Positions 7,608-57,873 of a stretch of DNA of 64,000 nt are shown in pieces. Below the pieces are notes generated by a model. It was not told the origin of the DNA. It did not search any database and saw only the letters and a list, made by a program, of their open reading frames with translations. Numbering within the stretch: position 1 is the first letter of the stretch; the number at the start of each line of letters is the position of its first letter. Origin of the DNA: Methanocorpusculum sp. (GTDB lineage: Archaea > Halobacteriota > Methanomicrobia > Methanomicrobiales > Methanocorpusculaceae). The stretch covers positions 310,001 through 374,000 of the forward strand of contig NZ_JAUSPQ010000008.1 of NCBI RefSeq assembly GCF_030655665.1, read 5' to 3'. The position numbers and the translations under genes were made by a program.

Positions 7608-9302
7608 TTACTCCAGAATCATATAACTGGCAAAGTAGGTGTCATTCCCCACTGGTTCAACGTAATCCAGAACAAACACCTCTTTTTGTTTTACCGAGTC
7701 CCAGGCAAGTGTATACATCAGACCGCCGCCGGCCTCCCCGAGCGATATTCCCTCCCGGACAAACGACATGCCGTATGAGTTTACACTGCCGAGCTGATTG
7801 GTTCCGACCAGAGCCGGGTCTTGGGAAAAGGCCAGGATCGTCCCGTTTCCGGTGACTGCAAACGGGTAGAGTCCTTCTCTCTGGAATTCACTATTCGGGT
7901 CCATCATCATCTCAGTAACCGCGGGGATGCCGTCGACCGCTGCAAGATACCGCATGGTCCTAACCTGCTGGATCAGAGCGTTTCGGGTCTGCCAGTCAAC
8001 ATTGACCGTATGGGAAAACGAGGTATTATGCACATACATTCCCGCACCGATGTACCACTCGTTATCTATCGGCAGCACATAGGACAACTTTAACTCTCTT
8101 GAGTAATCCTGATTCGGGTTTGTATACAGATATAAGACATATCCTCCTCCCTGTTCTGCCCTAGCTATTGTCCGTTGAACAAATTTTACGCCGTTTGCAT
8201 CTTCGGTGAACCAGGCATTTCTCCCGACGAGAGCCGGCTGATACGGGACCGACAATATCGTCCCATTCATATCTCCGGCAAATATATACAACTCACCGTC
8301 AATAAACTCCCCGTTTGGATCATTGAACGCCGCAATGGCTTTTTCTTTTCCTTCTGTATTGGCATAGATGTAGGCATTACTTACGAAGGCTTTCAATTCT
8401 TCCTGGGTAACGGTGAGTTCAGTGGTTTCATGGGGTAGCGGGAGATTGTCGACAAGCACAACTCGCCATGTCGCTCCGTATCCCGGATCTACGGTTTCCC
8501 ACACGGCGTTCGTCTGGGAAATTATGTGTGAGCCCGGTCTATAGAATATGTAGGATGCATGCCCTGATTCGTTGTTGAGAATATCTGCAGCTGCCTCGGC
8601 AAATGAAGGTGTATATTCCGATGACTGGGTCGTGAGGTCACCTCCGATTTGCGGCGTGTCCTCGTCATAGATCACGACCCCGTTGTCCTGAGTGACCCAG
8701 ACGGTATACCCGTATTCCGACCTGAGTTTCTCCACCGTTCCGGAGAAAAGATATCCTACATCAAAAGCTGCCTGGAGGGTCCCGTCAAAATTCCCCTCTG
8801 CGTCATAGACCGGTGCGATGATCTTGATTCCTCTGTCACCGTTTTGGAAGGTTACATACTCTGATATCAGACAATCAGGGCCGGCAACTCTTAGTTCTTC
8901 TTCAGTGTAGGGGGTGGTTATTATTTCCGTGCCGATGAGCTGTTGGTTATTCACATCCCCAGTAATGGCAGTAAGGATATTTTCCGTATCGACTCTGCCG
9001 ACCTCATAGGACAGAGGGATCTCACTTTTGAGTTTCAGTAAAGCCAGAGCGACCGCCGGGTCATCTGCCGGCACGCCGTCCAGTTCCCGTGCCGCATTCC
9101 ACACCGTCGCGGTCATCGTCTTCATTTCGTCATCTATGGTCTGGATATATGGGTAAAGGACCGTGTCCATCTCTGTATAATACTCATCAGTGACCGGTTC
9201 CAGATTTTCTGTCTCCGGGATAAAATTTATGCATCCGGAGGCGGATATGAAAAGAAGAACTATGATTATAAATACTATCTTTGAAAAAGCATGTCGTATC
9301 AT
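7608..9302 (-). CDS. Cache-domain lipoprotein B
   Basis: Second of three tandem paralogues, 564 residues. Signal helix at residues 8-22 and lipobox ASGC with Cys24. The same tandem Cache-like architecture is seen, with AFNDPNGEFIDGELYIFAGD, GGGYVLYLYTNPN, YPFAVTGNG and REGISLGEAGGGLMYTL. Unlike A and C it is not followed by the small membrane protein: only 140 noncoding bases separate its stop from the start of A. It shares its promoter/operator layout with A, not with C, so A and B seem the more recently duplicated or co-regulated pair. Extracytoplasmic ligand binding is inferred from the fold family. Confidence 0.82.
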   Translation of the reverse strand: MIRHAFSKIVFIIIVLLFISASGCINFIPETENLEPVTDEYYTEMDTVLYPYIQTIDDEMKTMTATVWNAARELDGVPADDPAVALALLKLKSEIPLSYEVGRVDTENILTAITGDVNNQQLIGTEIITTPYTEEELRVAGPDCLISEYVTFQNGDRGIKIIAPVYDAEGNFDGTLQAAFDVGYLFSGTVEKLRSEYGYTVWVTQDNGVVIYDEDTPQIGGDLTTQSSEYTPSFAEAAADILNNESGHASYIFYRPGSHIISQTNAVWETVDPGYGATWRVVLVDNLPLPHETTELTVTQEELKAFVSNAYIYANTEGKEKAIAAFNDPNGEFIDGELYIFAGDMNGTILSVPYQPALVGRNAWFTEDANGVKFVQRTIARAEQGGGYVLYLYTNPNQDYSRELKLSYVLPIDNEWYIGAGMYVHNTSFSHTVNVDWQTRNALIQQVRTMRYLAAVDGIPAVTEMMMDPNSEFQREGLYPFAVTGNGTILAFSQDPALVGTNQLGSVNSYGMSFVREGISLGEAGGGLMYTLAWDSVKQKEVFVLDYVEPVGNDTYFASYMILE

Positions 9303-9318
9303 GATCAGATTCCTTAGT

Positions 9319-9350
9319 GAACAATAGTAGAGGGAAAGTTCTTATACCTT
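9319..9350 (-). promoter_or_regulatory. Promoter/operator of Cache lipoprotein B
   Basis: GAAC at 9319-9322 and GTTC at 9338-9341 form an inverted repeat that overlaps the minus-strand TATA box AAGGTATAAGAAC (9338-9350), about 43 bases before the ATG. The layout and several spacer bases match the element at 7494-7522. Confidence 0.48.
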
Positions 9351-9481
9351 TTGTTATGGGGAACTTTTCAGGAAATCAGCGGGAATGAGATGATACCGGC
9401 ATACAGATTTTTGGGTGCCTGATCGGTAATTGTCCTTGCGAATGAGGAAATAGGTTATAATCCTCTAAAAAATGGGGTTAT

Positions 9482-9913
9482 TTATGTGAACTTCATCGTG
9501 TTCATTTTAAGGAGTTGTGTTTTGCCGTCCGAAAATATCCCGCGAACCGCAATATCTCTAACACCCGTTACTCCTTCACCGACTCCCGTAAAGTAGACTT
9601 CTCCCGTGCTGGAATTTGGTGCCGGTTTTAGTGAGGCTGAAGTCGGGAGCGAGACTCCTTCGATCTCCAGCGAAAGCATGACCAGCTCATCAATTCTGCG
9701 TCCTTCATAAATCGTTACGATCACATCATTGCCAACTACAAACACATGCAGCAGTACATCCGGATCCTCAAGTGATTTATCTATGACATACCCGGTTCCG
9801 AGAAGTACGGCCGCGGCACAGGCACCTACAATGATGAGCGAAACAATTCCCAGAATAACTATCATGATCAGGCGTTTTTCTTTCTGACTCTGTTTTTTGT
9901 ATCTTAGTGCCAT
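9482..9913 (-). CDS. Small single-pass membrane protein, second paralogue
   Basis: A 143-residue paralogue of the 5350-5766 product with the same plan: basic N-terminus RYKKQSQKEKR, hydrophobic helix at about residues 16-43, then an outer domain with SLEDPDVLLHV, NDVIVTIYEGRRIDELV and a C-terminal VRGIFSDGKTQLLKMN. It begins 6 bases downstream of Cache lipoprotein C, and the pairing is therefore conserved in two of the three units. Family unknown to me; a membrane anchor or partner for the lipoprotein is the simplest inference. Confidence 0.75.
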   Translation of the reverse strand: MALRYKKQSQKEKRLIMIVILGIVSLIIVGACAAAVLLGTGYVIDKSLEDPDVLLHVFVVGNDVIVTIYEGRRIDELVMLSLEIEGVSLPTSASLKPAPNSSTGEVYFTGVGEGVTGVRDIAVRGIFSDGKTQLLKMNTMKFT

Positions 9914-9919
9914 ATTGAT

Positions 9920-11593
9920 TTACTCCAAACGCATCATACTTCCGTAGTAGATATCCTCATCTGCAGGTTCTACAGAAATGAGTACATACACCTCTTTTTC
10001 CGCGACCGAGTCCCACACAAGAGTATACATCAGTCCTCCTCCGGATTCACCCAGGGAGATGATCTCCCGTATGGGCGACATTCCGTAAGAGTTCGTGTAT
10101 CCAAGCCGGTTCTTTCCGGTCTCAGAAGGGTCATGGGCATTGGCGAGGATGTCTCCATGTGGATTCAGGGCAAACGGATAGAGCCCTTCGACCTGGACCC
10201 CACTCTCTGGATCATTGATCATCTGCAGAATATCTTCCTGAGGGAGTAAGGTGGAGAGATATTGGAAGTTTCTCACCTGGGTGACCAACTGATCGCGTTC
10301 CTCCCAACTGTAGTTCAGGGACGTAGTTCCCGGGTATATTCCCGCTCCGATCAACCAGTCATCGTCGACGGATATAATATATGAAAACTTTAATTCGGTG
10401 ATGAAGGCGTTGTTGGGGTTTGGATACTGGTAATACACAAACCCTCCTCCAAACTTTGCTCTGTCGATAAATCTCTGGACAGGCTTTACTCCGATGATGT
10501 CTTCCCCGCTCCATCGATTTATTCCGATCATGCTCTGTTGATATGGAAGGGCAAGGGTCGTCCCGTTCATGTCATAGGCAAAGATGTAGAGTTCTCCGTC
10601 GATGAACTCACCCTGCGGATCATTGAATGCACGCAAAGCCTCCTCTTTGGTATGGGTCCGTGCGTACAAGTATGCCTTCTCGACAAATGTCTGGAGTTCT
10701 TTTGTGGTGAGCCGGGCATCTTCGCAGGTATTGGCATTGATATTGGTGTTGATATTGTCACAGAGAACGATTCTCCATTCAATGTCGTTTGGGAGCATTA
10801 AAGTATACCAAACGGCATTTGCCTGAACATACTCGGTCCATCCGACGTTTTGAAACATGTATGATATGTTCCCTTGTTTTTCTGCAGCGATCTGGTACAT
10901 GGCATTTTTGACCGTTGTTTCGCTGTACAGCGGGTCGGTCAGAGCGTTTTTGTCGAGTTCCTGAATATCCTCGTCATAGATCAGTACACCGTCCGGCTGC
11001 ATTGCCCATATGGTGTAACCTTCCTGCTTTTTCAGCTGAGATACCGGCCCGGCAAAAAGATAGGCCGGGTTCAGGGAGACACGAAGCGACGCTGTGTATG
11101 TGCCATTTTCGTCATAGATCGGGGCAACGATGAGAATACCTCTTTCTCCGGTGATAAATGTGATGGGCTTTGTGATAATGCAGCCGTTCGTCGTATTGGT
11201 GAAATCCGCATCGCTGGTCGAGATTCCAGCCTGTTTCCCAATAAGATCCTGTTTATCCTGTTTGCTGATAACCGCAAGAAAGGTGTTGTCTGCACTGACG
11301 ACATATACGTCATATGCGGCAGGGATGTCGCGGCGAAGTTGTAATAATGCTTGGTTTAATGTGGGGGTGTCTGTATTAGTTCCCGTAAGATTACCTGCCG
11401 TACTGTTTGTGAGAATGAAGATTTCGTTGAGTTGTTTTTCAAGGCTTGGGACGAACGTATCTAATGAACTCTGCATCTCGGCGATTTTTTCATCAGAGAG
11501 CGGTCCCATCTGTCGGGTCGTTATACATCCAGTGGTTAAAATGAGCGCCAGGATCAGACATACTATCATAAAATGTATTGTTTGCTGAGTCAT
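9920..11593 (-). CDS. Cache-domain lipoprotein C
   Basis: Third tandem paralogue, 557 residues, the most divergent of the set. Signal helix and lipobox TTGC with Cys23. Conserved segments include AFNDPQGEFIDGELYIFAYD, GGGFVYYQYPNPN, YPFALNPHG and REIISLGESGGGLMYTL. Its promoter lacks the inverted-repeat operator of A and B; a TATATAATT at 11613-11620, about 23 bases before the ATG, predicts an almost leaderless mRNA. The adjacent small membrane protein starts 6 bases after its stop. Extracytoplasmic binding or sensing is inferred. Confidence 0.82.
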   Translation of the reverse strand: MTQQTIHFMIVCLILALILTTGCITTRQMGPLSDEKIAEMQSSLDTFVPSLEKQLNEIFILTNSTAGNLTGTNTDTPTLNQALLQLRRDIPAAYDVYVVSADNTFLAVISKQDKQDLIGKQAGISTSDADFTNTTNGCIITKPITFITGERGILIVAPIYDENGTYTASLRVSLNPAYLFAGPVSQLKKQEGYTIWAMQPDGVLIYDEDIQELDKNALTDPLYSETTVKNAMYQIAAEKQGNISYMFQNVGWTEYVQANAVWYTLMLPNDIEWRIVLCDNINTNINANTCEDARLTTKELQTFVEKAYLYARTHTKEEALRAFNDPQGEFIDGELYIFAYDMNGTTLALPYQQSMIGINRWSGEDIIGVKPVQRFIDRAKFGGGFVYYQYPNPNNAFITELKFSYIISVDDDWLIGAGIYPGTTSLNYSWEERDQLVTQVRNFQYLSTLLPQEDILQMINDPESGVQVEGLYPFALNPHGDILANAHDPSETGKNRLGYTNSYGMSPIREIISLGESGGGLMYTLVWDSVAEKEVYVLISVEPADEDIYYGSMMRLE

Positions 11594-11612
11594 TGTGCCG
11601 TAATCCCGGTCT

Positions 11613-11620
11613 ATATAATT
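11613..11620 (-). promoter_or_regulatory. TATA box of Cache lipoprotein C
   Basis: AATTATATA on the minus strand, centred about 23 bases before the ATG at 11593; no operator palindrome of the A/B type is present. Confidence 0.5.
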
Positions 11621-11623
11621 ATT

Positions 11624-12178
11624 TTTTTACGTCTCCATGTATATAATATCTTGTCTATTTTTCCCTGGATTTTGTCCAGTTTTTTAGGAGCATGTGTTTA
11701 CTCTTTCTCCTGCAAATGGGTTGTTTTTTTCTCATTTCCGGGTTGTTCTGGGACTTTTCAAGGCCTGGTGTTTTTTGAGAGGGGGGAGAAGCTCTTTAAG
11801 CTCATGGGCGATTTCGGCTGGGATTTGGAATTAGGAGGAAATGATGAGAAATCTACCGAAAAATGATGTGATACTCACCATTAAGTTCTCAAATTTGGCT
11901 AGGTACTCGGTTCTGAGTTCACCAGGTTGTGCGGTTCTGCGCGTTTTTGTCGGAAATTGCGGTGTCAGCGGGGATTATCGATGTCACGCATAGATTTCGA
12001 GAGAGAAGGATTTGAGTTATACGTCTGCTGCGGCCTGGCGTATTCCCGAGACGCAGTTTCGGGTTATGTTGCGTCAAAGGGCACGTGGGCAGGCAATACG
12101 TCAGGGCTTATACGTGATACCTTGTTTTCCACGGAGAACTTTCCCCTTGCATGAAAAGGAAGGAGGGTTCCTTCCCGT
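11624..12178. other. 555-base intergenic stretch without a supportable gene
   Basis: The stretch lies upstream of Cache lipoprotein C and downstream of the PKD gene. The first 200 bases are T-rich on the plus strand. From about 12012 a plus-strand frame encodes a short segment (WRIPETQFRVML and on) that looks less random than the rest but has no start signal and no family that I recognise; it could be a decayed gene fragment. A weak stem (CCCTT/AAGG around 12143-12163) near the PKD stop could be a terminator. Nothing else is supported. Confidence 0.4.
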
Positions 12179-13780
12179 TCAGCTCTCATTCACAATAAAC
12201 ACATAATTCGTTGAATCGAACAGACTGTAGAAAAGATGCATGAACTCTTTGATGATGTCAAGAGGAGCCGGGATGACTATCTCTCCAATGGACAGGGTGG
12301 TAAGTGAGGCGTTGGTCGGTGTGGGGGTAGGAGTCGTGGTGGATGTAGTGACCGGGGAGTTCACGTAAATTGCCCGGGAATACGAATCTGTTGCTCCCGT
12401 ACTATCGATGACCGTCAGCTTAACTATATAGGTTCCTGCCGAGGTAAAGGTGAAGGAGGGATTCTTCGTCGCCGAAGAGCCAAGTCCGCCGAAGTCCCAG
12501 ACCCATTGTGTGGGCGAACCAGCGGATTTGTCAACGAACAAAACAGTTAATGGCATGGTTCCGGATTCGGATGAGGCTGTAAAAGATGCGTCGAGCCCTA
12601 CTTTATTCACCGTGATCACGACCGTTTTATACACCGTTCCGTTAGCATTGGTTGCCGTAAGATTTGCTGTGTAGTTCCCGACGCTCGTGTATGTGTGGGT
12701 CAGCGTACCGCTCAGTGAGGAGAGGGAAGCAGTCGACCCATCCCCATAGGTCCACGAGGTCCATGAAGTCGAGGTTGCATTGGTTATATTATACGTGAAT
12801 TTGACCGGCAGCGATACGGTACCTGAGGTAACATTTGCGGAAAGCGTGATGGTCGGCAGGATTTTTGCTGCGGTTGCCGGAAAAGTGTGGGAGATAGTAA
12901 GCAGCTGCGTGCTGGGATTTACGGTCACATATGTGGAAGAAACGGAATCTCCATTCAGCGAGACTGTAGGTTTGGCTGCAGTGAATACATACCCGGATGC
13001 GTTTTGGATCGTGATGGTCGCGGTGTACTGCGTATTTTCTCCAAATGTTGAAGCACCGGCATTCCATGATACACTGACCGGCGTCCCTCCGCCAGAAACG
13101 ACGAAGGTAGTGTCTGGCGTTGCGCTATACACCGGAGCGGTAAGTTCGGTTACGGAAAGAGAGGTGATGTTGGTAAGAGTCGGGGCTGGACTAACGGTGA
13201 TGTTGTGTGATGTTGTACTAGATTCCATTCCTTCCTTGCTCACAGTCAGACTCACAGTATATGTTCCGGCACTTGAGAAGGTATGTGTTGGATTTTGATT
13301 TAAAGAGGAATCTCCATCGCCAAAATCCCAAGCCCAACTATTAGGTGATCCGGTAGACGTATTGGAAAACTGAACACTTAGAGGAGCAGTTCCCGATGTA
13401 GGATACATGATAAAAGAGGCTGTGAGCGGGATTACTATCTCATTAACTTGAATATCAAGGGTCTTGATATCAGTCATTCCAGAAGTGGCATTTGTGGCTG
13501 TGAGAGTTGCAACATAAGGTCCAGGCGTAGAATATGTGTGAGATGCACTTGTTTGGCCGAATACATTATTTTCTGAATCAGTTGCAAAATATTTGAGTGT
13601 GAGAGATGTGGTATTATCATCAACAGAAAAAGTAAATGTCACTGGAGAATTTACATTAACTTCTATTGAATTTGCAGTGAAAGAATTAATTTTCGGTTCG
13701 TCATCTGCACTCACTGCTCCCACGCATCCCATCACAAGGAACATCGCGAGAAGCACCAGTAAACATTGTTTCAGTATCAT
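12179..13780 (-). CDS. Secreted PKD-repeat surface protein
   Basis: A 533-residue exported protein. An N-terminal signal (residues 1-25, LLAMFLVMGCVGAVSA) is followed by at least three PKD domains recognisable by WDFGDG-type motifs (WAWDFGDGDSS near 150, WTYGDGST near 340, WVWDFGGLG near 425), plus a PKD-like first module and a different beta module near 200-300. A TTSTTTPTPTPTN linker precedes a C-terminal 35-residue tail. That tail lacks the PGF motif and the basic end of archaeosortase substrates, so anchoring is unclear. A strong ribosome site GGAGGAGGT lies 7 bases before the ATG, and the gene follows the PH/Yip1 gene by 17 bases, so the pair is probably one transcript. PKD proteins of methanogens are usually cell-envelope adhesion or structural proteins. 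Confidence 0.85.
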   Translation of the reverse strand: MILKQCLLVLLAMFLVMGCVGAVSADDEPKINSFTANSIEVNVNSPVTFTFSVDDNTTSLTLKYFATDSENNVFGQTSASHTYSTPGPYVATLTATNATSGMTDIKTLDIQVNEIVIPLTASFIMYPTSGTAPLSVQFSNTSTGSPNSWAWDFGDGDSSLNQNPTHTFSSAGTYTVSLTVSKEGMESSTTSHNITVSPAPTLTNITSLSVTELTAPVYSATPDTTFVVSGGGTPVSVSWNAGASTFGENTQYTATITIQNASGYVFTAAKPTVSLNGDSVSSTYVTVNPSTQLLTISHTFPATAAKILPTITLSANVTSGTVSLPVKFTYNITNATSTSWTSWTYGDGSTASLSSLSGTLTHTYTSVGNYTANLTATNANGTVYKTVVITVNKVGLDASFTASSESGTMPLTVLFVDKSAGSPTQWVWDFGGLGSSATKNPSFTFTSAGTYIVKLTVIDSTGATDSYSRAIYVNSPVTTSTTTPTPTPTNASLTTLSIGEIVIPAPLDIIKEFMHLFYSLFDSTNYVFIVNES

Positions 13781-17286: not shown

Positions 17287-17339
17287 TCGGCTGAGGGACC
17301 TAAAGATCCTCGCCTCATTTGAAGATACCATTATCTCTC

Positions 17340-18461
17340 ATGTGCGCAAAAGCTAAACATATGAGGCAGAAGCAACCCGGTTCCCAGATCGACCGGATAA
17401 CGATCCGCGGATTCCGCTCGATACGATCCTGCGATCTCCGGCTTCGCGACATCAATATTCTCATAGGAGCCAACGGCGCCGGTAAATCTAATTTCCTCTC
17501 GGTGTTCTGCATGATGGAACAGATATTTGCAAAACGTCTGCAGAACTATGTCACCTATAACGGAGGTCCCGACTCTCTTCTCTGGTTCGGCAGGCAGGAG
17601 ACCGAGAAGATCAGTGTCGGCATATACTTCGGAAACAACGGATACGGTTTCGATCTCAAACCCACAAAAGATAATCGGATGATGTTCGAGGATGAATGGT
17701 TCTCCTGGAATCTCCTCAAGGAGAACCGGTCACTTGGATGCGGACACCTGGAATCTTTGTATGATGCCGGGACCGGAACATTCATCGACAAATATGTGCT
17801 GAAACATGTTCATCAGTGGGTTGTCTATCACTTCAATGAAACAGGCGATCATGCAAAAGTCAAGCATATCCATGCGATCAATGATAACATTTCCCTCAGA
17901 CAGGATGCAGGCAATCTTGCCGCGTATCTCTATCTGATGAAACTGACCGCCCCGAACAATTACCAGAGGATCAGAAAAGTGATCCAGCTTGCTGCTCCCT
18001 TCTTCGAGGATTTCATCCTGCGGCCGAAACCCGAGAATCCGGATATGATCGAACTCGAATGGTGTTCTACCCATGGAAATACACTGTTCAAAGCCGCGGA
18101 TCTCTCCGACGGAACGCTCAGGTTCATCTGCCTTGCAACGCTTCTTCTTCAGCCTGTCGAGAACATCCCGGAAACGGTGCTTCTTGAGGAGCCGGAACTT
18201 GGTCTTCACCCCTATGCCCTTTCATTGCTTGCGGCCCTGATCAAATCCGCCGGTCTCGTGAAACAGATCATCGTTTCTACGCAGTCGGCTCTTCTACTGA
18301 GTGAGTTCGAGTTGGAGGACATCATCGTTGTCGACTGGCGGGACGACGCCTCAATCTTCCGCAGACTTGAGGATGACGAGGAGCTCCAGAACTGGATCGC
18401 TCAGGATTATTCTCTGGGAGAACTTTGGGAGAAGAACATCTTTGGCGGGAGACCGCAGTAA
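17340..18461 (+). CDS. AAA-family ATPase (AAA_21/OLD-like), putative defence protein
   Basis: A 373-residue ABC/SMC-like ATPase of the type paired with TOPRIM-like proteins in phage defence. The N-terminal ITIRGFRSIRSCDLRL strand leads to Walker A GANGAGKS (residues 43-50). A signature-like LSDGTLRFICLATLLL, Walker B TVLLEEPELGLHP and the switch segment IIVSTQSALLLSEF lie in the C-terminal third. ATG codons at 17340 and 17361 are both possible; neither has a clear ribosome site, and an in-frame TTG at 17319 is less likely. The DUF4276 gene starts two bases after the stop, and a GyrI-like gene follows. The nearby repeats upstream hint at a mobile or variable locus. The defence role is inference from gene pairing. 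Confidence 0.82.
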   Translation: MCAKAKHMRQKQPGSQIDRITIRGFRSIRSCDLRLRDINILIGANGAGKSNFLSVFCMMEQIFAKRLQNYVTYNGGPDSLLWFGRQETEKISVGIYFGNNGYGFDLKPTKDNRMMFEDEWFSWNLLKENRSLGCGHLESLYDAGTGTFIDKYVLKHVHQWVVYHFNETGDHAKVKHIHAINDNISLRQDAGNLAAYLYLMKLTAPNNYQRIRKVIQLAAPFFEDFILRPKPENPDMIELEWCSTHGNTLFKAADLSDGTLRFICLATLLLQPVENIPETVLLEEPELGLHPYALSLLAALIKSAGLVKQIIVSTQSALLLSEFELEDIIVVDWRDDASIFRRLEDDEELQNWIAQDYSLGELWEKNIFGGRPQ

Positions 18462-18463
18462 GC

Positions 18464-19147
18464 ATGGTCACCCTGTTCATATCCTGTGAAGGGTATACCG
18501 AAGAGGTTTTTATCAAACGCCTGATGGCAAAGGAACTGGCGCATCTGGGTGTCACTCTCATTCCCGTGATCGTGATGACTTCAAAGCGTAAGTCGGGGGC
18601 CGTGTGCAGAGGGGGCTGCTCTTCCTACGATAAGATCAGGAGGGATGTACTGAATCTTTGCAGACGACCGGGTTCCTATGTCACGTCAATGTATGATTTC
18701 TATAAGTTTCCGGCGATCCCGGGATACACGGTGTCCTACGATCTAGCCTCCCCTCTTGAGCGGGTGACCGAGATGGAAGCGGCGTTTGCAGAGGATATCG
18801 ACCGGGAAAATTTTCATGCAAACATCCAGCTGCATGAGTTCGAGACCCTGTTGTTTTCCGATCCTTCAGCGTTTTCCGTTTGCGGGATGAGCAGAAAACA
18901 GGTGAGTAAACTCGCAGCTGTCCGCAGGGATTTTCTCCCCGAAGAAATAAACGGCGGGGAGATGACCGCGCCTTCTAAACGGATACTGCGGGTCAATCCC
19001 GGATATCAGAAACCTACCGACGGGCTGACGGTCGCACGTGAGATCGGGCTTGAGACGATGTGCACAGAGTGCCCGCATTTTGGAAAATGGGTCGCATGGA
19101 TCAAAACGCTCCCCGAAACGGCAAAACAAACAGTACATGAAAGGTAA
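18464..19147 (+). CDS. DUF4276 family protein (TOPRIM-like), ATPase partner
   Basis: A 227-residue DUF4276 protein. The N-terminal VTLFISCEGYTEEVF carries the conserved glutamate (Glu9) of a TOPRIM-like fold; VTSMYDFYKFP around residue 75 supplies an acidic position, and the IQLHEFETLLFSDP motif is typical of the family. The start is the ATG two bases after the ATPase stop; the longer frame reaching back to 18425 overlaps the ATPase and is not needed. Such proteins are regularly encoded beside AAA ATPases and are suspected nucleases or nucleic-acid-binding effectors, by analogy with OLD- and PARIS-type systems. Activity is not shown by the sequence. Confidence 0.8.
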   Translation: MVTLFISCEGYTEEVFIKRLMAKELAHLGVTLIPVIVMTSKRKSGAVCRGGCSSYDKIRRDVLNLCRRPGSYVTSMYDFYKFPAIPGYTVSYDLASPLERVTEMEAAFAEDIDRENFHANIQLHEFETLLFSDPSAFSVCGMSRKQVSKLAAVRRDFLPEEINGGEMTAPSKRILRVNPGYQKPTDGLTVAREIGLETMCTECPHFGKWVAWIKTLPETAKQTVHER

Positions 19148-19783: not shown

Positions 19784-20899
19784 TTATCCGGTTTCCCGGA
19801 TGAACTGTTCCACTCTTCTGCGGATCTCTTCCGGAGAGAGGGGAATATTCGGCGATGCCGAATTTCCCGGGCGGATAAGGAGATGAACGAACGAAACACC
19901 CCGTGATACGGCGCTTGATATCTCTTGAAGGGATACGGCACGTTCGACCGAGGTGATCCCGGCCGCACGTGCGAGCATCCCGATATCTGCGGTTTCATAC
20001 GCTGGACTGATCTGATTCCCGGTGCTTCCAAACGTCCCGTTGTCCAGCGCCATGATATGCAGATTCTCACATTTCTGTGCCGCGATCACCGGCAGAACTG
20101 CCGATCCGAGCAGACTTCCGTCCCCGTCGATCACATAGACTGGCGTTTTCGGTGAGGAAAACGCACAGCCAAGACCGATCGCGGACGTCTGCATATAACT
20201 GCCGAGCATGTAGAAGTTCCCTGCCCGGTCCTTTGCCGCATAGAGTTCCTTGGACGGAACTCCGATATTGGAGATGATGACCGCGTTTTCGGGAACCGCG
20301 GAGACGATTTTTTCTATCGCGTCAAGCCGTGTGAGTTCAGGTTCGGTGTATCCCGGCAGGAAAAATGTCCGGTCCGGAAGTGAACGTTTCGGATACGTAA
20401 TGGGTGCATCCTGCTGGGGATCCCAGCAGGAAGGAAGGATCAGAGCAACATACGGCGTCTGCTGTGTAAACGCACCTCTGATGACCTCTCTGATCCCTTC
20501 CAGATCCGCTGCGGATCTGCAGATCCGATACGGGATGTTATACACATCCAGCAGTTTCGGCAGCGGAGCATTGAACGGGATCTGGGCACAGATCTTCTCG
20601 TCGCATACACCCCGCCAGCTTGCAAGGATCGGCAGAGGAAAGTGATACACGCAGGAAAGCGAGAGGAGTGCGTTGAGCATATTCCCAAGGCCCGAGCTCT
20701 GGATCGAGACGAGCGGACGTTTTCCGGCGAGAACTACGCCTGCCCCGATCCCGACCCCGTCCTCTTCACGTGCCAGGTCGATGACCGGGAACTCTGTTTT
20801 TAAAAGCGCGGTGAGACGCTTGTTTTTATCACACGGCAGAGAGGCGATCATGTCGATCCCTTCTTCGTGCATGATCCGAAGAACCGTTTCTTCGTTCAT
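19784..20899 (-). CDS. comDE: Sulfopyruvate decarboxylase, ComD-ComE fusion
   Basis: A 371-residue thiamine diphosphate enzyme that decarboxylates 3-sulfopyruvate to sulfoacetaldehyde in coenzyme M biosynthesis. Residues 1-165 correspond to the alpha subunit (ComD), with the AREEDGVGIGAG cofactor-activating glutamate region at 43-54. The rest is the beta subunit (ComE), with the thiamine diphosphate/metal motif GDGSLLGS ending in LDNGTFGSTGN. In Methanococcales the subunits are separate; a fused form is typical of this group of methanogens. It is the last gene of a six-gene minus-strand operon and overlaps the cysteate synthase stop by 4 bases. Confidence 0.93.
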   Translation of the reverse strand: MNEETVLRIMHEEGIDMIASLPCDKNKRLTALLKTEFPVIDLAREEDGVGIGAGVVLAGKRPLVSIQSSGLGNMLNALLSLSCVYHFPLPILASWRGVCDEKICAQIPFNAPLPKLLDVYNIPYRICRSAADLEGIREVIRGAFTQQTPYVALILPSCWDPQQDAPITYPKRSLPDRTFFLPGYTEPELTRLDAIEKIVSAVPENAVIISNIGVPSKELYAAKDRAGNFYMLGSYMQTSAIGLGCAFSSPKTPVYVIDGDGSLLGSAVLPVIAAQKCENLHIMALDNGTFGSTGNQISPAYETADIGMLARAAGITSVERAVSLQEISSAVSRGVSFVHLLIRPGNSASPNIPLSPEEIRRRVEQFIRETG

Positions 20900-22134
20900 A
20901 ATGCCGGCACCTCGCCGGGATCGACCGTGGTGTAAACGCCTATCTGTGCAATCTCGCAGTCCTTTTTCACCCGCTCGTATCCCCCGCCGGTGATGTTTAA
21001 GAGGATCGTTGCATTTTTCCGGATAGAACCCTCTTCGGCTGCGGAGATGAGGGACGCGAAGGCAACGGCGGCGGCCGGATCGATGTCGATTCCGTTTTCC
21101 GCTTCGGCGAAGATTTTAGCGGCACTCGCCGCATCGCTGTTTTCTACGGTATACATTCGCCCGCCGCAGGCTTTCATGGCATCATACACCCCGCCGCGGA
21201 TCCCATATGGGGGTGTACGGTTCGTCAGGACATGTGCGGATACCGCGGCAATTGAAGCCTGTGCATTCGGCATATCCTCTTCGGTGATATGATCTCTGCC
21301 TGCATTCCATGCACGGACCATCGGAACGAACGGCAGGTTCTGGGAGAGATGGAGCTCCGGATATGCACTGCCGAAGCGTCCATCTCCGATCAGGCGAACC
21401 GCAGCTTCCCATGCGGCGATCCCTCCGGTTCCTGAACCGACCGCCTGGAAGTAATACTCGGGCAGTTTTCCTATCGTAACGGCGGCATCGAGCATCACGC
21501 AGCCCATCCCGTCCCGGCGGGCGATGTTTTTGCCGCCGCCTTCCGGGAAAAATCCCGGGGCTTCGCAGATTTTATCGGCTGTTTTTATTGCGTCGGTGTA
21601 ATCTCCGCGGACTGTGATAAGCCGAATATTGCTGTGATCGAAACATCCCGCGGTCCAGAGTTTGTCGGCCGAACTTTCCGGTACGACAAGGACCACGGGT
21701 GTCCCGAATTCCGCGGACATCTGGGCAAATGCCCGGCCGGTGTTTCCGGCTGACGCCACGACCAGTGTTCCGCCTCCCGCCTCATTCAGGCGGACGATCG
21801 TCGGCAGAGCTTCCAGTTCCTTGAACGAACCGGTTGGCACATAACAGCCGCGTTCCGGATAGTAGCCGGTAAAGGTGATCCAGAGATTCGGCAATCCGAG
21901 TTCGCGGCAGAGTTTCCGGTTTTGAAAGGTCACGGGTCTTGATTTGTTCGGGACAAAGCTATGGACCGGGAGCCAGTCGCTGAAACGGAAAATACCCGGG
22001 AGATTTTCCCGGACGGTCAGCTGAGAGGCTTTGTACTCGGCCCGGACAAAACCCGGATGATTGGGGCAGGCAAGGGTATAATGGTCTTCGAGAAGTTCCC
22101 CGCCGGCAAGACAGCGTAAAACGTAATCGCCCAT
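20896..22134 (-). CDS. Cysteate synthase
   Basis: A 412-residue PLP enzyme of the threonine synthase superfamily. In Methanomicrobiales and Methanosarcinales this paralogue makes cysteate from O-phosphoserine and sulfite, the entry to coenzyme M by the phosphosulfolactate-independent route. PTGSFKELEALP contains the Schiff-base lysine, VASAGNTGRAFA is the phosphate-binding loop region, and GSGTGGIAAWEA is the cofactor phosphate loop. The N-terminal CLAGGELLEDHYTLACPNHP region is characteristic of this subgroup. Position beside comDE separates it from genuine threonine synthase. It abuts the marker-16 gene directly and overlaps comDE by 4 bases. Confidence 0.93.
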   Translation of the reverse strand: MGDYVLRCLAGGELLEDHYTLACPNHPGFVRAEYKASQLTVRENLPGIFRFSDWLPVHSFVPNKSRPVTFQNRKLCRELGLPNLWITFTGYYPERGCYVPTGSFKELEALPTIVRLNEAGGGTLVVASAGNTGRAFAQMSAEFGTPVVLVVPESSADKLWTAGCFDHSNIRLITVRGDYTDAIKTADKICEAPGFFPEGGGKNIARRDGMGCVMLDAAVTIGKLPEYYFQAVGSGTGGIAAWEAAVRLIGDGRFGSAYPELHLSQNLPFVPMVRAWNAGRDHITEEDMPNAQASIAAVSAHVLTNRTPPYGIRGGVYDAMKACGGRMYTVENSDAASAAKIFAEAENGIDIDPAAAVAFASLISAAEEGSIRKNATILLNITGGGYERVKKDCEIAQIGVYTTVDPGEVPAL

Positions 22135-23361
22135 CTAAAACCTCCAAGCGCCGGAATGGATCCGGTCGCGGACCAGGATCGCCGCCCGGTCTCCCCGCAC
22201 GCGGTCGGACTGACGAAGTCCGATGGGGATATCCGCGTCCGGGATCTGCAGCGTTCCCGCGTTTGCGGAAAACACCTGATTTTTGCAGACGGTCACGCAG
22301 GTCAGGCAGCCCATGCATGATTTGCTGATCGAGAGGTCGGGCCGGATCGCCGCGACCGGACAGAGATCTTTCGCGCACTCTGTGCAGTCATCCACGCAGC
22401 GCGAAGGATCGACACGGACCCGTCGGTCGGTGTTCTGCCAGATATCCGCGTAGGTCGCGGCGGCAAATGGAGTCCTGTTCTGGATGTCGGCGACCGGGAG
22501 CGGGATATCTTCATCGAGAACGCGGAGGGCATTCAGGGTTTCGTCATCCAGTACAGGGATCGCGGTCCCGATCGAAGTCAGGCATTCGGCGCCGAGAGCG
22601 GTCACAAAACCGCCCATCATATCGGGATGCATGCCCCGCATATCCGCAGAGAGAGAAAGATTCGGTTTCTGCGGCGACGATCTCGTCCCGCACCCAAGGA
22701 TCAGACCGGGTCCGCCGTTCACGAGCGCCGCCGCTCCCGGGACGTGATAGCGTAATCCCGGATCATTTTCGAGCGGATTGATCTCCCCACAGCCGGAAAC
22801 GGACGCGCTCTGCATATCCGGTTTCATCGGGAACGTGGAAAAGATCGTGGAGATCTCCTCCCCGCTCCGGTTCACAAATCCCATGTAGTTTTTGAATGCT
22901 CCGCGGGTGACGATCAGCCTGGCGGAGGACATCTCGGCAAGGCTGACCATGCGGGTGATCTTCCCCGTATCGGTGATGATCTCTGCAGTGACCGGCTTTC
23001 CTGCGGCAAGATCTGAAAAAAGGTGTCCGCCGCCGTATGAGGGGTCGTGTTCCGCATGGGATGTCCCATACACCATACAATCGACATGTCCGTTGCTTTC
23101 ATTCGGGCAGGGACCGATGAACGCCGGGACCCCGTTCAGTGTCATGGAGACGACACGCCGGAAGGTTCCGGGAGCGCCGGCCTGGAACGCGAGCACCGCG
23201 GACGTTCCGGACATCACGCCGAACGTCCCGCAGGTCACCACGTCCACGTCATCAGGGGTGATCTTCTCCCCTTTTCGGATACGTTCCTTGAGGGTTTTTG
23301 CCGTTATAACGACCGCGGTTTTGTCGGCGATTTTCCGGTTGATATCTGCAAGCGTTTTCAT
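22135..23361 (-). CDS. Methanogenesis marker 16 metalloprotein (DUF39 + ferredoxin)
   Basis: A 408-residue protein: DUF39 homocysteine-biosynthesis-like domain (about residues 1-310) and two [4Fe-4S] motifs near the C-terminus (CVDDCTECAKDLCP and CMGCLTCVTVC). It is homologous to the aspartate-semialdehyde sulfurtransferase at 56365-57873 but has a fused ferredoxin and no CBS domains. The active-site segment reads VVTCGTFGVMSGTSA, with Cys44 where the other protein has Thr46 and Ser51 where it has Cys53. Neighbours cysteate synthase and ComDE make sulfoacetaldehyde, so I infer that it converts sulfoacetaldehyde to coenzyme M by the same persulfide chemistry. The Fe-S gene upstream overlaps it by 4 bases. 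Confidence 0.88.
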   Translation of the reverse strand: MKTLADINRKIADKTAVVITAKTLKERIRKGEKITPDDVDVVTCGTFGVMSGTSAVLAFQAGAPGTFRRVVSMTLNGVPAFIGPCPNESNGHVDCMVYGTSHAEHDPSYGGGHLFSDLAAGKPVTAEIITDTGKITRMVSLAEMSSARLIVTRGAFKNYMGFVNRSGEEISTIFSTFPMKPDMQSASVSGCGEINPLENDPGLRYHVPGAAALVNGGPGLILGCGTRSSPQKPNLSLSADMRGMHPDMMGGFVTALGAECLTSIGTAIPVLDDETLNALRVLDEDIPLPVADIQNRTPFAAATYADIWQNTDRRVRVDPSRCVDDCTECAKDLCPVAAIRPDLSISKSCMGCLTCVTVCKNQVFSANAGTLQIPDADIPIGLRQSDRVRGDRAAILVRDRIHSGAWRF

Positions 23362-23984
23362 AAGATCACGATCCCCTCCACTCTGACGTGGAGGCCGTAG
23401 GACTTCTTCAGGATCATATTGACGATGCCGGTGTGCGTCCGGTCCATCATACAGAATCCCGGCAGGAATGGATGCCTGACCCCGAATGCCGGGGGGCGGG
23501 CGATGACCCTAGCCACTCCCTCGAATCCGATCATATGGTACATCTTCAGATCAACGATATCAGCTTTGTCCCGGGAAAAAGCGGGACCGACAACATGTCC
23601 GGTGATCAGCCCGGTGGTATAATCCGCTTCGAGGACCCGTATGACATGCTGGACCGGGCATCCCGCACCCGCGGGTCTGCCTAAAACGATGTCGCCTTTT
23701 TTGATTTCCTCGCGTTCGACCAGATCAGGTCGAAACGGCAGAAGTATTTTTCGTGCTGAGGGCTCGTTCGGCAGCGCAGAAAGCACAAAGTCGTACGGAG
23801 CATTGCAGATATCCGTTCCCGAATACGATGCGGAAAGCTCTCTGCAGCTGTATTTCTGACTATCCTCATGATAATACGGGCAGGCGGCAAGGTTTTTCAT
23901 GCCGGACGCTGCCAGGATCATGAATGCATCGCAGCTTTCCGCTCCGCAGGCACCGCAGTCTTTTCCCGGAGGCGTCCAGATCAT
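23358..23984 (-). CDS. Fe-S cluster protein of the coenzyme M operon
   Basis: A 208-residue protein with an N-terminal [4Fe-4S] domain of the ACDS-gamma/PF04060 type: Cys10, Cys13, Cys18 and Cys35 in PGKDCGACGAESC and AACP. The remainder is a soluble domain with GDIVLGRPAGAGCPVQHV and IVDLKMYHMIGFEGVARV that I cannot name. No membrane segment is present. It overlaps the GTPase stop by one base and the marker-16 start by 4. Context suggests an electron carrier, or an insertion partner for the metal centre of the marker-16 protein. Confidence 0.78.
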   Translation of the reverse strand: MIWTPPGKDCGACGAESCDAFMILAASGMKNLAACPYYHEDSQKYSCRELSASYSGTDICNAPYDFVLSALPNEPSARKILLPFRPDLVEREEIKKGDIVLGRPAGAGCPVQHVIRVLEADYTTGLITGHVVGPAFSRDKADIVDLKMYHMIGFEGVARVIARPPAFGVRHPFLPGFCMMDRTHTGIVNMILKKSYGLHVRVEGIVIL

Positions 23985-24697
23985 CAGTCACCCCGGTAGA
24001 TACTGTCGGGAGCGTCGATTTGACGGATGACTCCAAAATGTTCCTGCCATCCAATCTCCTTTTTCCCGATACATATCGTGCATACGCCAAGCGGCGGGAC
24101 CCCACGGAGCATATCCTTTTCTGACGGAGCGGGCGGCATATCCGCGATCACTTTGGTGAGATACCGCATCCCGGTCCCTTGGACGGCGTTGGTTTCGATG
24201 ATGTCGATATCCGGCGCGACCTCTTTGATCCGCTCGCGGAAGACCTCCTTTTCTGCCTGGGAGACAAGATCGATCTTTGTTACCACTGCCACATCGGCAA
24301 GGGCGATCATCGGGGCCATCTTCAGCGGAGCATGGGTTCCCGACACGGCCGAGATAACACACAGACCAAGTGAGTTCTTTGTGTAGGGAGTACAGCGCAG
24401 ACAGAGGCCCGCACTTTCATACAGGAGGTAATCGGCACCGTTTTTTTTTTCTGCCCATTCCATCGCGTCCCGGATGACCATGATCCCCATATGATCCGGG
24501 CACATATCTCCAGAGTACACTTTTTTTGTTGGAATACCGAATTCCGCCGCGATCTCCTCGTCCTCCCAGGCCTGCACGACATCGATCTTGAGGTATGCGG
24601 CTTTTTTCGGGTCGGGCAGACTCCGGATGATCTGTTTGACAACGGTGGTCTTTCCCGCGCTCGGCGGTCCGGCTATGGCGATCAGTTTGACATTCAT
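23984..24697 (-). CDS. HypB/CobW-like P-loop GTPase
   Basis: A 237-residue SIMIBI-class GTPase resembling metallochaperone GTPases. The P-loop GPPSAGKTT lies at residues 10-18, the switch segment YLKIDVVQAWEDEE follows, and TKIDL is the guanine-specificity motif. Two cysteine pairs, CLRC (in LCLRCTPYT) and CTIC near the C-terminus, could bind metal. It lies between the ABC ATPase and the Fe-S protein with 4- and 1-base overlaps. HypB, UreG and CooC relatives load nickel, so I infer assembly of a metal centre for the marker-16 protein or another coenzyme M enzyme; the metal is unknown. Confidence 0.8.
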   Translation of the reverse strand: MNVKLIAIAGPPSAGKTTVVKQIIRSLPDPKKAAYLKIDVVQAWEDEEIAAEFGIPTKKVYSGDMCPDHMGIMVIRDAMEWAEKKNGADYLLYESAGLCLRCTPYTKNSLGLCVISAVSGTHAPLKMAPMIALADVAVVTKIDLVSQAEKEVFRERIKEVAPDIDIIETNAVQGTGMRYLTKVIADMPPAPSEKDMLRGVPPLGVCTICIGKKEIGWQEHFGVIRQIDAPDSIYRGD

Positions 24698-25485
24698 GCC
24701 TCGACCCCTTCGAGTCCGGAAAGCAGGTCGCCGGCACGGATGCGTTCTCTGAGATGGGTGATCTTTGCATCCATTCGGGCGATTTCTGCGAGTGTCTCCT
24801 CCTCTTTTCGTCCCGGGGTCAGGATCTTTGTTACGGCTCCATTCCCCATGACGATCCGCGTCCCGGTGAGGAGAGCGACGTAAGGATCGTGGGTCACAAA
24901 AATAATGGCCTTCTTTTCTTCACGCAGGACTTCGATGACCCGGTCCTTGAAGATGCCGGCATTTTCCACTTCATCCAGCAGAATGATCGGCGTGTTGGAA
25001 ATCACGATCGCGTCGGCAATAAAGAGCGATCTGGTCTGTCCGCCGGAAAGAGCGCTCATCCGCATATGCGGCGATATTTTCTCTCCGGTAAACTCGTTTG
25101 CGACGCTGATGGTTTTCTCCATGATCCCCTGCCCGTCCAGTTTGCGGGAACGGATATGCATCTCCAGAAACTCGGAAACGATCAGGTCGGCAAGGCATTT
25201 GGTATTCTGTGTGATCATGGCGATGGGTTTTTTGGACGGATCACGGACCAGAGCCTCGCCGGGTTCGCTGCCGTTGATTAATATTCGGCGGTTCGTGACG
25301 GTATCTCCCTGGGCAAACACTTCGATATCATTGATGAAAGCGGTTTTTCCCGAACCGGTCGGACCAACGATGGAGAACGTGTCGCCCGGACGGATAACGA
25401 TCTCATCAAATCCTTCCTTTTTTCCATCGCGGGTGGTTCCGGGAAGAATAGTGAGCGACTCTATCTCTGTGCGTGAAGAAGACAT
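24694..25485 (-). CDS. ABC-type ATP-binding protein heading the coenzyme M operon
   Basis: About 263 residues with a single ABC nucleotide-binding domain: Walker A GPTGSGKTAF, signature SALSGGQTRS, Walker B IILLDEVENAG, switch VTHD. No membrane partner is nearby, and the C-terminal tail is a short helix (EIARMDAKITHLRERI). It is half the length of the two-domain component A2 (AtwA) of methyl-coenzyme M reductase activation, so it is not AtwA. I place the start at the ATG of MSSSRTEIE (25485); a GTG seven codons upstream is the alternative. It overlaps the GTPase gene by 4 bases. A soluble, energy-coupled role in cofactor or metal handling is inferred. Confidence 0.78.
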   Translation of the reverse strand: MSSSRTEIESLTILPGTTRDGKKEGFDEIVIRPGDTFSIVGPTGSGKTAFINDIEVFAQGDTVTNRRILINGSEPGEALVRDPSKKPIAMITQNTKCLADLIVSEFLEMHIRSRKLDGQGIMEKTISVANEFTGEKISPHMRMSALSGGQTRSLFIADAIVISNTPIILLDEVENAGIFKDRVIEVLREEKKAIIFVTHDPYVALLTGTRIVMGNGAVTKILTPGRKEEETLAEIARMDAKITHLRERIRAGDLLSGLEGVEA

Positions 25486-25782
25486 ACCTGATAATATCCA
25501 CTTCACGCGTAATAATACTTTATCTACAAGCCATTATTATTAATATAAAAAGATAATATTTTCCATAAAATATAATTTTAGTATAACATTTAGTAACCAT
25601 GCCCCAATAATCTGGTCTAAGTCTGATGTGTAATTAGGACTCATTTCATGAATATTCGGGAAGTGATCCGGTATTGATGAGGTATCACGTCAATTATACA
25701 CTATTATGACATAATGAATGAAATTTGGTTCAAACGTCTGTGACTCGGAAAGATCTGAAAAAAGGGATTGGGATTTTGCGAG
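25486..25782. promoter_or_regulatory. AT-rich leader region between coenzyme M operon and rfcL
   Basis: Nearly 300 bases without a gene. The first 100 upstream of the operon are extremely AT-rich with several overlapping TATA-like stretches on the minus strand (25545-25590), the likely promoter. Further out are a perfect ATTATG-A-CATAAT palindrome (25703-25715) and imperfect inverted partners GTGTAATTAGGAC (25629) and GTCAATTATACAC (25690). These could be operators for sulfur- or energy-dependent control, but no known site is recognised. Confidence 0.35.
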
Positions 25783-55982: not shown

Positions 55983-56368
55983 TACTTCTGGATACTCAAC
56001 GCACGCTGAGGGCAGTAGGTGGCACATCTGCCGCAGAGGACACACCGCTCAGAATCGACGACAAGCTGCCAGTTTTCATCGAAGGAGAAGACCTGCTTTT
56101 GACAGATACTGATGCACAGTCCGCAGTCAACACAGTCCGTACGGTTGTGAGAAACCGCGTCCTTCTGGATACGGATAGACACGCCTTTTCTGGAGAGGGC
56201 GGTGATGAACATGTCTGCATCCTTGTCATCAACGTCAAGAAGGGCCCAACCCTCGTCCCCGTCGATCAATGCACGTTCAACATTCACCATCACGCCAGAC
56301 CTGAGTATGGCCGCGGCGATATTTGGATACTGGACTCCGTCGGAGTCAAACTCGACCATCAATTTCAT
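55982..56368 (-). CDS. NIL-domain / 2[4Fe-4S] ferredoxin for homocysteine synthesis
   Basis: A 128-residue protein. Residues 1-70 form the small NIL (ACT-like) domain. A dicluster ferredoxin follows with Cys79, 82, 85, 89 and Cys109, 112, 115, 119. It works with the DUF39 protein, probably donating electrons for reduction of the persulfide or thioaldehyde intermediate. Overlaps of 4 and 1 bases with its neighbours make a compact three-gene operon. Confidence 0.92.
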   Translation of the reverse strand: MKLMVEFDSDGVQYPNIAAAILRSGVMVNVERALIDGDEGWALLDVDDKDADMFITALSRKGVSIRIQKDAVSHNRTDCVDCGLCISICQKQVFSFDENWQLVVDSERCVLCGRCATYCPQRALSIQK

Positions 56369-57873
56369 CTTCGTCCCCTCCCGCCGACAAGATCACCAAG
56401 ATCATACGAGTTGAGCATGCCCAGGATATGCCTGGACGAGTCGATCACCACTAAGGCACCGATATTGTGCTGCTGAAGGGTGCGTGCGGCAAAATCGACC
56501 GGGGCGTCCGGGGCGATGGTGATGACGTTCTTGGTCATGATCTCAGAGACGGACATATCCTGTTCATCCTTTGCGAAGGCTTTGGAGACATCATAGGTCG
56601 TAACGATACCGATCAGCCTGTTTTCCGAATCGATCACCGGGAGATGGTTCGTTTCGCCTTTCAGCAGCCGTTTGGCAGCTTCTTTAACGCTTTCCTCACC
56701 CGTAATGGTGACGAACGTTGAGACCATCATCTCGTTGACATGGCAGACATATCCCTTCTCCGCCATGGGCTTGTTTATCTTATGGGAATCGATCGGTCGG
56801 GTAGCGAGGGCCATGGTGAAGGACCCTGTTTCTATACGTGTCTTCAGTTCGGCCGCGACTTCACGTGCCTTCTTATAACTCGAGAGAGGGGAGCAGCGCA
56901 CTTCCTCGCCGTCGATCTCGACCGACCCGCTCTTGAGCTGGGCATATGTGACCTCCCGGATCACAGGTCTGTCCCTGAACGGCGTACCGTAATCGACGAT
57001 GTTCGTTTTCAGATCCTCGTCGCGGACCGCAGTGTGCCTGACGATCTCCTCATTTAAGAGAGGGATCGGGATGCCTACGCCGACGTACATTGTCACGCCG
57101 TATCCGGTCATGGTAGCGGCACGGATGTAATCAGATGACATCTCCTTCATATTACCGGAGGTCATGAGTGTCCCAAACCCGGCTCCCGGGGAGGACTGTG
57201 TGCCCTCCCCGACAACGACACCGTTCGCCCCGCCGATAAAGATCGGGGTGCCGGAACCGATGACGGAAAGGGTCGGATCATTTGCGAGGGGGGAGAGGCA
57301 GCCGGCTCCCGAATACGTGATATTCCGGTGAGAGGGGAGAAGGAATCCCATATAGGTCTTTATTGCCTGATCGCTCATATTGGTGGCAGCATTATAGGAT
57401 TGATATGAGTTTCTCGGGTTGAGCATGATGGCCTGATTCAGTTCCTGCAGAGTAAACTCATTCGTTATAGATGTTCTGGGATAACAGTCGGTCCCCTTTG
57501 CCCGTGCATGAAGTTCTACGGACTTTCCGGCGATCAGATCCTCTATCACATGTGCCCCGCCGTACTCTGAGTGCCGAGTGGTGGATTCCTGAGTTGCCCC
57601 GATAAAACAGTCAACGGCCGCGATACCCGCATATGCCTCGACATTGTTCAGCCACATCTTCTCCATTCTGATCGGTATCTCAGAATGCCCAAAGTTTAGA
57701 AAAGCGCCTGACGAGCACATCGCGCCGAAAGTACCGGTGGTGACCACATCTACGTCACGAAGTGCCCCGGTAACGCCGAGTTCGTCGACGATATTCGGCA
57801 TCTCTTCAGCGCTGACCACACGGACACTTCCATCACGAATACGCTCATTTATTTCGTCGATGGATTTGTACAT
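56365..57873 (-). CDS. L-aspartate semialdehyde sulfurtransferase (DUF39-CBS)
   Basis: A 502-residue protein for sulfide-dependent conversion of aspartate semialdehyde to homocysteine, the methanogen replacement for the O-acetylhomoserine route. The DUF39 (HcyBio) domain occupies residues 1-370, with the persulfide cysteine in VVTTGTFGAMCSSGAF (Cys53). A pair of CBS domains fills the C-terminus (GEESVKEAAKRLL, HLPVIDSENRLIGIVTTYDV and a second copy), likely binding adenine nucleotides or SAM as a regulatory input. It is homologous to the marker-16 protein of this window. A TATA box lies 28-35 bases upstream. Confidence 0.93.
   Translation of the reverse strand: MYKSIDEINERIRDGSVRVVSAEEMPNIVDELGVTGALRDVDVVTTGTFGAMCSSGAFLNFGHSEIPIRMEKMWLNNVEAYAGIAAVDCFIGATQESTTRHSEYGGAHVIEDLIAGKSVELHARAKGTDCYPRTSITNEFTLQELNQAIMLNPRNSYQSYNAATNMSDQAIKTYMGFLLPSHRNITYSGAGCLSPLANDPTLSVIGSGTPIFIGGANGVVVGEGTQSSPGAGFGTLMTSGNMKEMSSDYIRAATMTGYGVTMYVGVGIPIPLLNEEIVRHTAVRDEDLKTNIVDYGTPFRDRPVIREVTYAQLKSGSVEIDGEEVRCSPLSSYKKAREVAAELKTRIETGSFTMALATRPIDSHKINKPMAEKGYVCHVNEMMVSTFVTITGEESVKEAAKRLLKGETNHLPVIDSENRLIGIVTTYDVSKAFAKDEQDMSVSEIMTKNVITIAPDAPVDFAARTLQQHNIGALVVIDSSRHILGMLNSYDLGDLVGGRGRR

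Follow-up and report, generated by a model that had tools for sequence, protein, structure and literature searches.

What do an ABC ATPase, a GTPase and an Fe-S protein contribute at the head of an operon for the synthesis of coenzyme M (CoM)? The question is raised by a locus of Methanocorpusculum sp. found in the 64,000-nucleotide stretch of DNA analysed in this work (hereafter the window). Biological methane formation cannot proceed without CoM, which archaea make by two routes, each starting from sulfite. The sulfite is added to phosphoenolpyruvate by ComA (PMC3087415) and used together with phosphoserine by cysteate synthase (CS; Graham et al., 2009, as cited in PMC12068725 and in PMC6286981). 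The source of the sulfite used for CoM by methanogens has been described as unsettled (PMC3448663; PMC6286981), and the siroheme enzymes proposed are missing from some methanogens (PMC3448663).

The gene cluster itself is not new, since its colocalisation with CoM genes was reported by Chadwick et al. (2025; PMC12068725), who showed the methanogenesis marker 16 protein (MMP16) to be the principal CoM synthase of Methanosarcina acetivorans. The legend to their Fig 2 records frequent colocalisation with CoM genes for three others, whose products are an ATPase, a Ni2+-binding GTPase and a COG2000 Fe-S protein, and the cluster of their Fig 2B has the same three gene types and the same colocalisation as observed here; the COG2000 label used below for the Fe-S protein is taken, by name, from that paper. 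The passages of the paper that concern the three genes (hereafter the trio) give them no role and contain neither a link to the sulfite-using enzymes nor any mention of joint gene loss, of paralogous ABC-GTPase pairs or of a Cys2His2 set. The change of partner enzyme between lineages is added here, together with these last three observations.

The operon and its products

The six genes lie on the minus strand at 19784-25485, in the order ABC-GTPase-FeS-MMP16-CS-ComDE. All six reading frames are free of internal stops, and the successive junctions are overlaps of 4, 1, 4, 0 and 4 bases, which confirms the tightly joined array (junctions of 0-4 bases) described in the first-pass annotation. The features are the following, the COG1900a-type homologue being listed for later reference:

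25486..25782, minus strand: AT-rich leader, presumed promoter region (from the sequence), between the operon and a replication factor C large-subunit-like gene
24694..25485, minus strand: stand-alone ABC ATPase, 263 aa (PF00005, 49.6 bits against a gathering score of 25)
23984..24697, minus strand: G3E (CobW/HypB/UreG) GTPase, 237 aa (PF02492, 57.2 bits, above the gathering score)
23358..23984, minus strand: Fe-S protein (COG2000-type), 208 aa (PF04060, 31.6 bits against a gathering score of 23, plus four cysteines)
22135..23361, minus strand: MMP16/ComF, methanogenesis marker 16 metalloprotein, CoM synthase (TIGR03287, 467.8 bits against a cut-off of 363.95; PF01837)
20896..22134, minus strand: CS, O-phosphoserine + sulfite to cysteate (TIGR03844, 656.5 bits against a cut-off of 324.9)
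19784..20899, minus strand: fused sulfopyruvate decarboxylase ComDE (TIGR03845, 210.7 bits against 147.95, and TIGR03846, 225.6 bits against 221.5, both in one ORF)
56365..57873, minus strand: COG1900a-type L-aspartate-semialdehyde sulfurtransferase homologue, HcyBio + CBS (PF01837, 469 bits, and CBS)

The identities first given to MMP16, CS and ComDE are thus upheld by scores above curated NCBIfam cut-offs, whereas the three leading proteins, all above their Pfam gathering scores, reach no curated NCBIfam equivalog cut-off. GC content is highest at the third codon position in each operon ORF (in CS the third position equals the first). The ABC ATPase starts with an ATG at 25485, an alternative upstream GTG at 25506 being possible, and an Rfam scan of the window, whose sole match was a tRNA elsewhere, found no riboswitch or other RNA element in the leader. 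The same six-gene order recurs in most of the other Methanomicrobiales loci that were read, where the trio proteins share about 50-70% identity, and for this reason the operon represents more than a chance association.

The ABC ATPase displays a Walker A motif (GPTGSGKT, residues 41-48), LSGGQ (146-150), a Walker B motif with D171 and E172, ENAG (174-177) in the D-loop position and H199 as H-loop, all of them fully or almost fully conserved across 26 homologues, paralogues included. No permease gene is present among the six operon genes, no conserved permease partner was found in the trio loci of other methanogens, and the protein reaches no cut-off of the NCBIfam transporter families. SufC and its kin are soluble stand-alone ABC ATPases with complete motifs and no membrane partner, features that the trio protein shares. 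Unlike SufC, it has no SufB/SufD partner and is accompanied by a G3E GTPase, and its scores for the NCBIfam ABC families listed all lie far under the respective cut-offs.

The GTPase has in common with HypB and UreG the PF02492 domain, the P-loop and aligned C/H/C metal ligands. In an alignment with seven HypB sequences, its P-loop and residues C66, H69 and C102 fall on or beside their HypB counterparts, H69 being offset from the HypB histidine by a two-residue insertion. The alignment of homologues shows as invariant candidate metal ligands these three residues plus C99 and C206xxC209; C99 and the C-terminal CxxC distinguish the trio GTPase from HypB and UreG, as does an ABC ATPase that was always adjacent in the loci read. 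The initial description of this protein as HypB-like holds for the domain and the ligands, but it is not HypB itself (TIGR00073, 62.9 bits versus an equivalog cut-off of 121.2), nor does it reach the level of UreG (TIGR00101, 25.9 versus 204.2), and in the GTPase tree HypB occupies a clade separate from the trio GTPases with support of 100/100. Nucleotide hydrolysis and metal binding are predicted for it from its family.

The Fe-S protein combines an N-terminal CFeSP-type [4Fe-4S] motif (C10, C13, C18 and C35) with a second domain in which C109, H113, C178, H184 and E203 are invariant; both residue sets are the same in all 31 proteins compared across distant lineages of methanogens. The latter set constitutes a candidate second metal site. 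The PF04060 four-cysteine motif is common to the N-terminal Fe-S domain of the corrinoid Fe-S protein large subunit (CdhE/AcsC), and the best PDB profile match is 4djd_C (E 2.4e-7), but the likeness is limited to about the first 45 residues, and the model of the subunit family, with a cut-off of 306, gives the protein 18.5 bits. AlphaFold, run on the single sequence, returned a pLDDT of 33 and no usable fold model. A search of the plasmid collection turned up no COG2000-like protein.

A second ABC-GTPase pair is present in the genome of the window (L031, 9889-11627; G000:C7), where it adjoins a DUF4213-DUF364 protein, annotated in Pfam as putative heavy-metal chelation, with a ModA-like gene near. 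In other methanogens, such pairs stand beside a DUF1858-SBP_bac_6 or an SBP_bac_6 protein, one of them lying next to Peripla_BP_2 and permease-like genes, and in Fusobacterium vincentii genes for a DUF1858-SBP_bac_6 protein, the GTPase and the ABC ATPase are found close to ZnuA-type genes. ABC-GTPase pairs are therefore a family common to methanogens and at least one bacterium. The paralogous pairs form one well supported clade in the GTPase tree, which leaves the deep branches, including the monophyly of the CoM type, without resolution. These pairs probably load metals onto differing client proteins, and their recurrence with different metal-handling or solute-binding-like third partners points to the Fe-S protein as the one that the pair would serve in the CoM operon.

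Distribution of the trio in methanogens

The GTPase, MMP16, CS and the Fe-S protein were searched in 147 Halobacteriota genomes, evenly drawn and at least 90% complete, and methanogens of other phyla were sampled through an McrA bait scan of genome contigs; all presence and absence counts given here are raw per genome, with phylogenetic kinship ignored. The CoM-type GTPase and the Fe-S protein occurred in exactly the same 40 of the 147 Halobacteriota genomes (40/40 co-occurrence). CS was present in all 40 of these and MMP16 in 38, while the trio was missing from 26 of 66 genomes with CS and from every one of the MMP16-positive, CS-negative genomes (0/9). The first-pass annotation had stated that absence of the trio from most genomes with both CS and MMP16 would speak against its proposal, and this was not seen, as 38 of 62 such genomes have the trio.

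Agreement is full in the Methanomicrobiales, where among 30 genomes from several families 21 have CS with an intact trio and nine have neither. In G003, from family f2 of this order, the CS, MMP16 and Fe-S genes are absent genome-wide, and a decayed locus (L199) shows an ABC gene broken by frameshifts and stops and the N-terminal half of a GTPase, which runs directly on into the C-terminal portion of ComDE. This fusion indicates that the intervening part of the operon was deleted, and hence that the lineage once had the GTPase and ComDE in one operon. The dedication of the trio to CoM synthesis is thus well supported. The earlier claim of a new part of the pathway stands as far as this dedication is concerned (40/40 with CS; 21/21 versus 0/9 in Methanomicrobiales), but the colocalisation had been published in 2025 (PMC12068725).

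As for gene arrangement, the trio lies within 6 kb of CS in 37 of the 40 Halobacteriota trio genomes. The family f21 (Methanothrix-like) has a CS-ABC-GTPase-FeS unit with MMP16 not nearby, and in family f8 the unit is CS-ABC-GTPase-FeS-ComD-ComE, MMP16 being on the opposite strand, either convergent or close by. The trio is absent from genus g61 and from its relative g67 (six genomes); the CS/MMP16 arrangement in these genomes fits Methanosarcina, and as likely congeners they stood in for M. acetivorans in the search. In M. acetivorans itself the genes cs, comDE and MMP16 follow one another as MA3297-MA3299 (PMC12068725; PMC12713407).

Outside the Halobacteriota, the trio was detected in 16 of 97 Methanobacteria genomes, in 18 of 36 Methanococci genomes and in two Methanopyri-like genomes, in neither of which the locus shows CS or ComA adjacent; it was not found in Methanocaldococcus sp. 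SG1, a congener of M. jannaschii. The order comA-ABC-GTPase-FeS is found in 16 of 16 Methanobacteria trios (four read directly, all by an FeS-ComA distance of 2.1-2.4 kb, with the comA product checked by PF02679) and in 13 of 17 readable Methanococci loci. In Methanobacteria the trio and MMP16 are separated by at least 11 kb, and Methanococci have MMP16 at a distant site or on a different contig; comA and MMP16 are side by side in some Methanobacteria that lack the trio (e.g. G199). Over the three groups together, 66 of the 74 trio genomes have the trio close to CS or ComA and 30 have it close to MMP16, so that the adjacency to MMP16 noticed at the outset is real but the sulfite-using enzyme is the more frequent neighbour. 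The eight trios not shown beside CS or ComA belong to three Halobacteriota and five Methanococci, one of the latter at a contig end.

The sulfite step and other possible targets

Homologous trios accompany ComA in some lineages and CS in others, and since sulfite is the common substrate of these unrelated enzymes, the trio genes are candidates for the sulfite source. The hypothesis that we rate highest, with a probability of somewhat more than one in three, is that the trio is an accessory module which serves the sulfite-incorporating step and not MMP16, its ABC-GTPase pair loading the Fe-S protein. According to this hypothesis, the ABC ATPase and the G3E GTPase would work as a fixed pair whose nucleotide hydrolysis loads a metal or a cluster onto a third partner. 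In the CoM operon this partner would be the COG2000 Fe-S protein, with its one [4Fe-4S] domain and second, invariant Cys2His2 set, and the loaded protein would make, hand over or control sulfite for CS or, in the phosphoenolpyruvate pathway, for ComA. What gene content and sequence show is the presence, order and conservation of the genes, their joint loss and their change of partner; both the sulfite role and the Fe-S protein as client are points that we only infer. That the trio is an anaerobic system forming or delivering sulfite for CoM in many methanogens, with the loaded COG2000 protein converting reduced sulfur to sulfite, seems distinctly unlikely to us. In a single genome (G009), a class-V aminotransferase gene with a NifS/IscS-like start is located between the GTPase and Fe-S genes, which fits sulfur handling. 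The association of the trio with two unrelated sulfite-using enzymes makes the question of the origin of sulfite open to direct genetics in organisms of the Methanococcus type.

A role at the sulfite step would have to be replaceable, because about two thirds of the MMP16-positive genomes and 74 of 90 ComA-positive Methanobacteria lack the trio. A scan for NIR_SIR domains (PF01077, sulfite-reductase-type) did not separate trio from trio-less genomes, and thus no complementary pattern for an alternative sulfite source appears. A role for CS only was rejected, since the trio also occurs beside ComA.

Adjacency to ComA and CS could also reflect pathway order only, both being first committed enzymes. 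This leads to the somewhat unlikely alternative that the trio has a different target within CoM synthesis or exerts control there, for example through metal or sulfur sensing that sets the flux of the first committed enzyme, or by assembling a cofactor for some other step. The strong dedication to CoM, with an exact partner known from the neighbourhood only, agrees with it, but regulators are not usually built from a nucleotide-hydrolysing pair and a cysteine-rich protein, and Pfam and NCBIfam scans of the trio proteins found no DNA-binding or ligand-sensor domain. Activation of the nickel enzyme MCR, or nickel homeostasis, by a trio merely co-transcribed with CoM genes is very improbable. The HypB-type family of the GTPase is what suggests it, and ATP-dependent MCR activation does use an ABC-type component (A2). 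Yet the same genome has the gene of a genuine HypB at another location, and the nine Methanomicrobiales genomes without CS and MMP16 are also without an intact trio, though the order is methanogenic; we rate this explanation low because the trio was lost together with CoM synthesis.

The first-pass annotation had favoured MMP16 as the target, proposing that the trio matures or energises it. Such a trio would mature or metallate MMP16 (ComF), or supply electrons to it, for the reductive thiolation of sulfoacetaldehyde, a reaction that needs two electrons, and the ferredoxin-like motifs at the C-terminus of MMP16 are in keeping with this. Gene neighbourhood is divided on the matter: the trio is adjacent to MMP16 in 30 of 40 Halobacteriota trios (Methanomicrobiales and family f8) and in G093 stands beside a second MMP16 copy, but none of the 34 trio genomes of Methanobacteria and Methanococci has the two within 11 kb of each other. 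Moreover, approximately 123 of 194 MMP16-positive genomes have no trio (33/71 in Halobacteriota, 72/87 and 18/36 in the other two groups), and G046 has kept the trio, CS and ComDE with MMP16 absent. Experimental work points in the same direction, as E. coli with MJ1681 alone makes CoM (White, cited in PMC12068725) and the MMP16 of M. acetivorans works from a trio-less locus (PMC12068725). This target therefore looks unlikely, and a role restricted to MMP16 is disfavoured by the distribution; maturation of MMP16 is possible where its gene is in the operon, but it leaves the other lineages unexplained.

The COG1900a-type homologue at 56365..57873, about 31 kb from the operon and outside it, is a weaker match to TIGR03287 and corresponds to the enzyme proposed as the backup CoM synthase.

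Trio operons with altered coenzyme M genes

In G046, the trio of ABC ATPase, HypB-like GTPase and Fe-S protein genes occurs together with those for cysteate synthase and ComDE (L059), and no gene for the coenzyme M (CoM) synthase MMP16 was detected in the operon or, over the cut-off, genome-wide. The CoM synthase of G046 would have to be a different protein, e.g., one of the COG1900a type. The window itself encodes MMP16 and also a homologue of this type:

56365-57873, minus strand: COG1900a/CBS homologue (L-aspartate semialdehyde sulfurtransferase type), proposed backup CoM synthase

G093 carries two MMP16 copies, on contigs C96 and C149 (L066 and L198), one adjoining the trio and the other, on a different contig, adjoining cysteate synthase-ComDE. 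In G009 (L067), a gene for a class-V aminotransferase (8464-9627), NifS/IscS-like at its start, separates the GTPase and Fe-S genes, and more IscU/IscS-like genes lie close to it.

A decayed remnant of the CoM operon is present in G003 of the Methanomicrobiales (L199, C1:605001-625000, at about 8400-10600), where the ABC gene is frameshifted and a deletion joined the N-terminal half of the GTPase to the ComDE C-terminus; cysteate synthase, MMP16 and Fe-S genes are missing genome-wide.

Related GTPase-ABC pairs

At L031 (G000:C7:18001-38000, 9889-12372), the window's genome encodes a second, paralogous GTPase-ABC ATPase pair, adjoining a DUF4213-DUF364 protein gene, with a ModA-like gene close by. 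In other methanogens, DUF1858-SBP_bac_6 proteins accompany the same pair type. The bacterial counterpart, DUF1858-SBP_bac_6 with GTPase and ABC ATPase, was observed in Fusobacterium vincentii (NZ_CP084075.1, L207, 6866-12454), its ABC ATPase sharing 40% identity with that of the window; two ZnuA-type metal-binding protein genes lie near this set.

A candidate defence gene pair

One gene pair of the window matched HEC-01 A/B, a candidate defence system in PADLOC (454.8 and 221.1 bits):

17319-19147, plus strand: AAA_21 ATPase and DUF4276 genes
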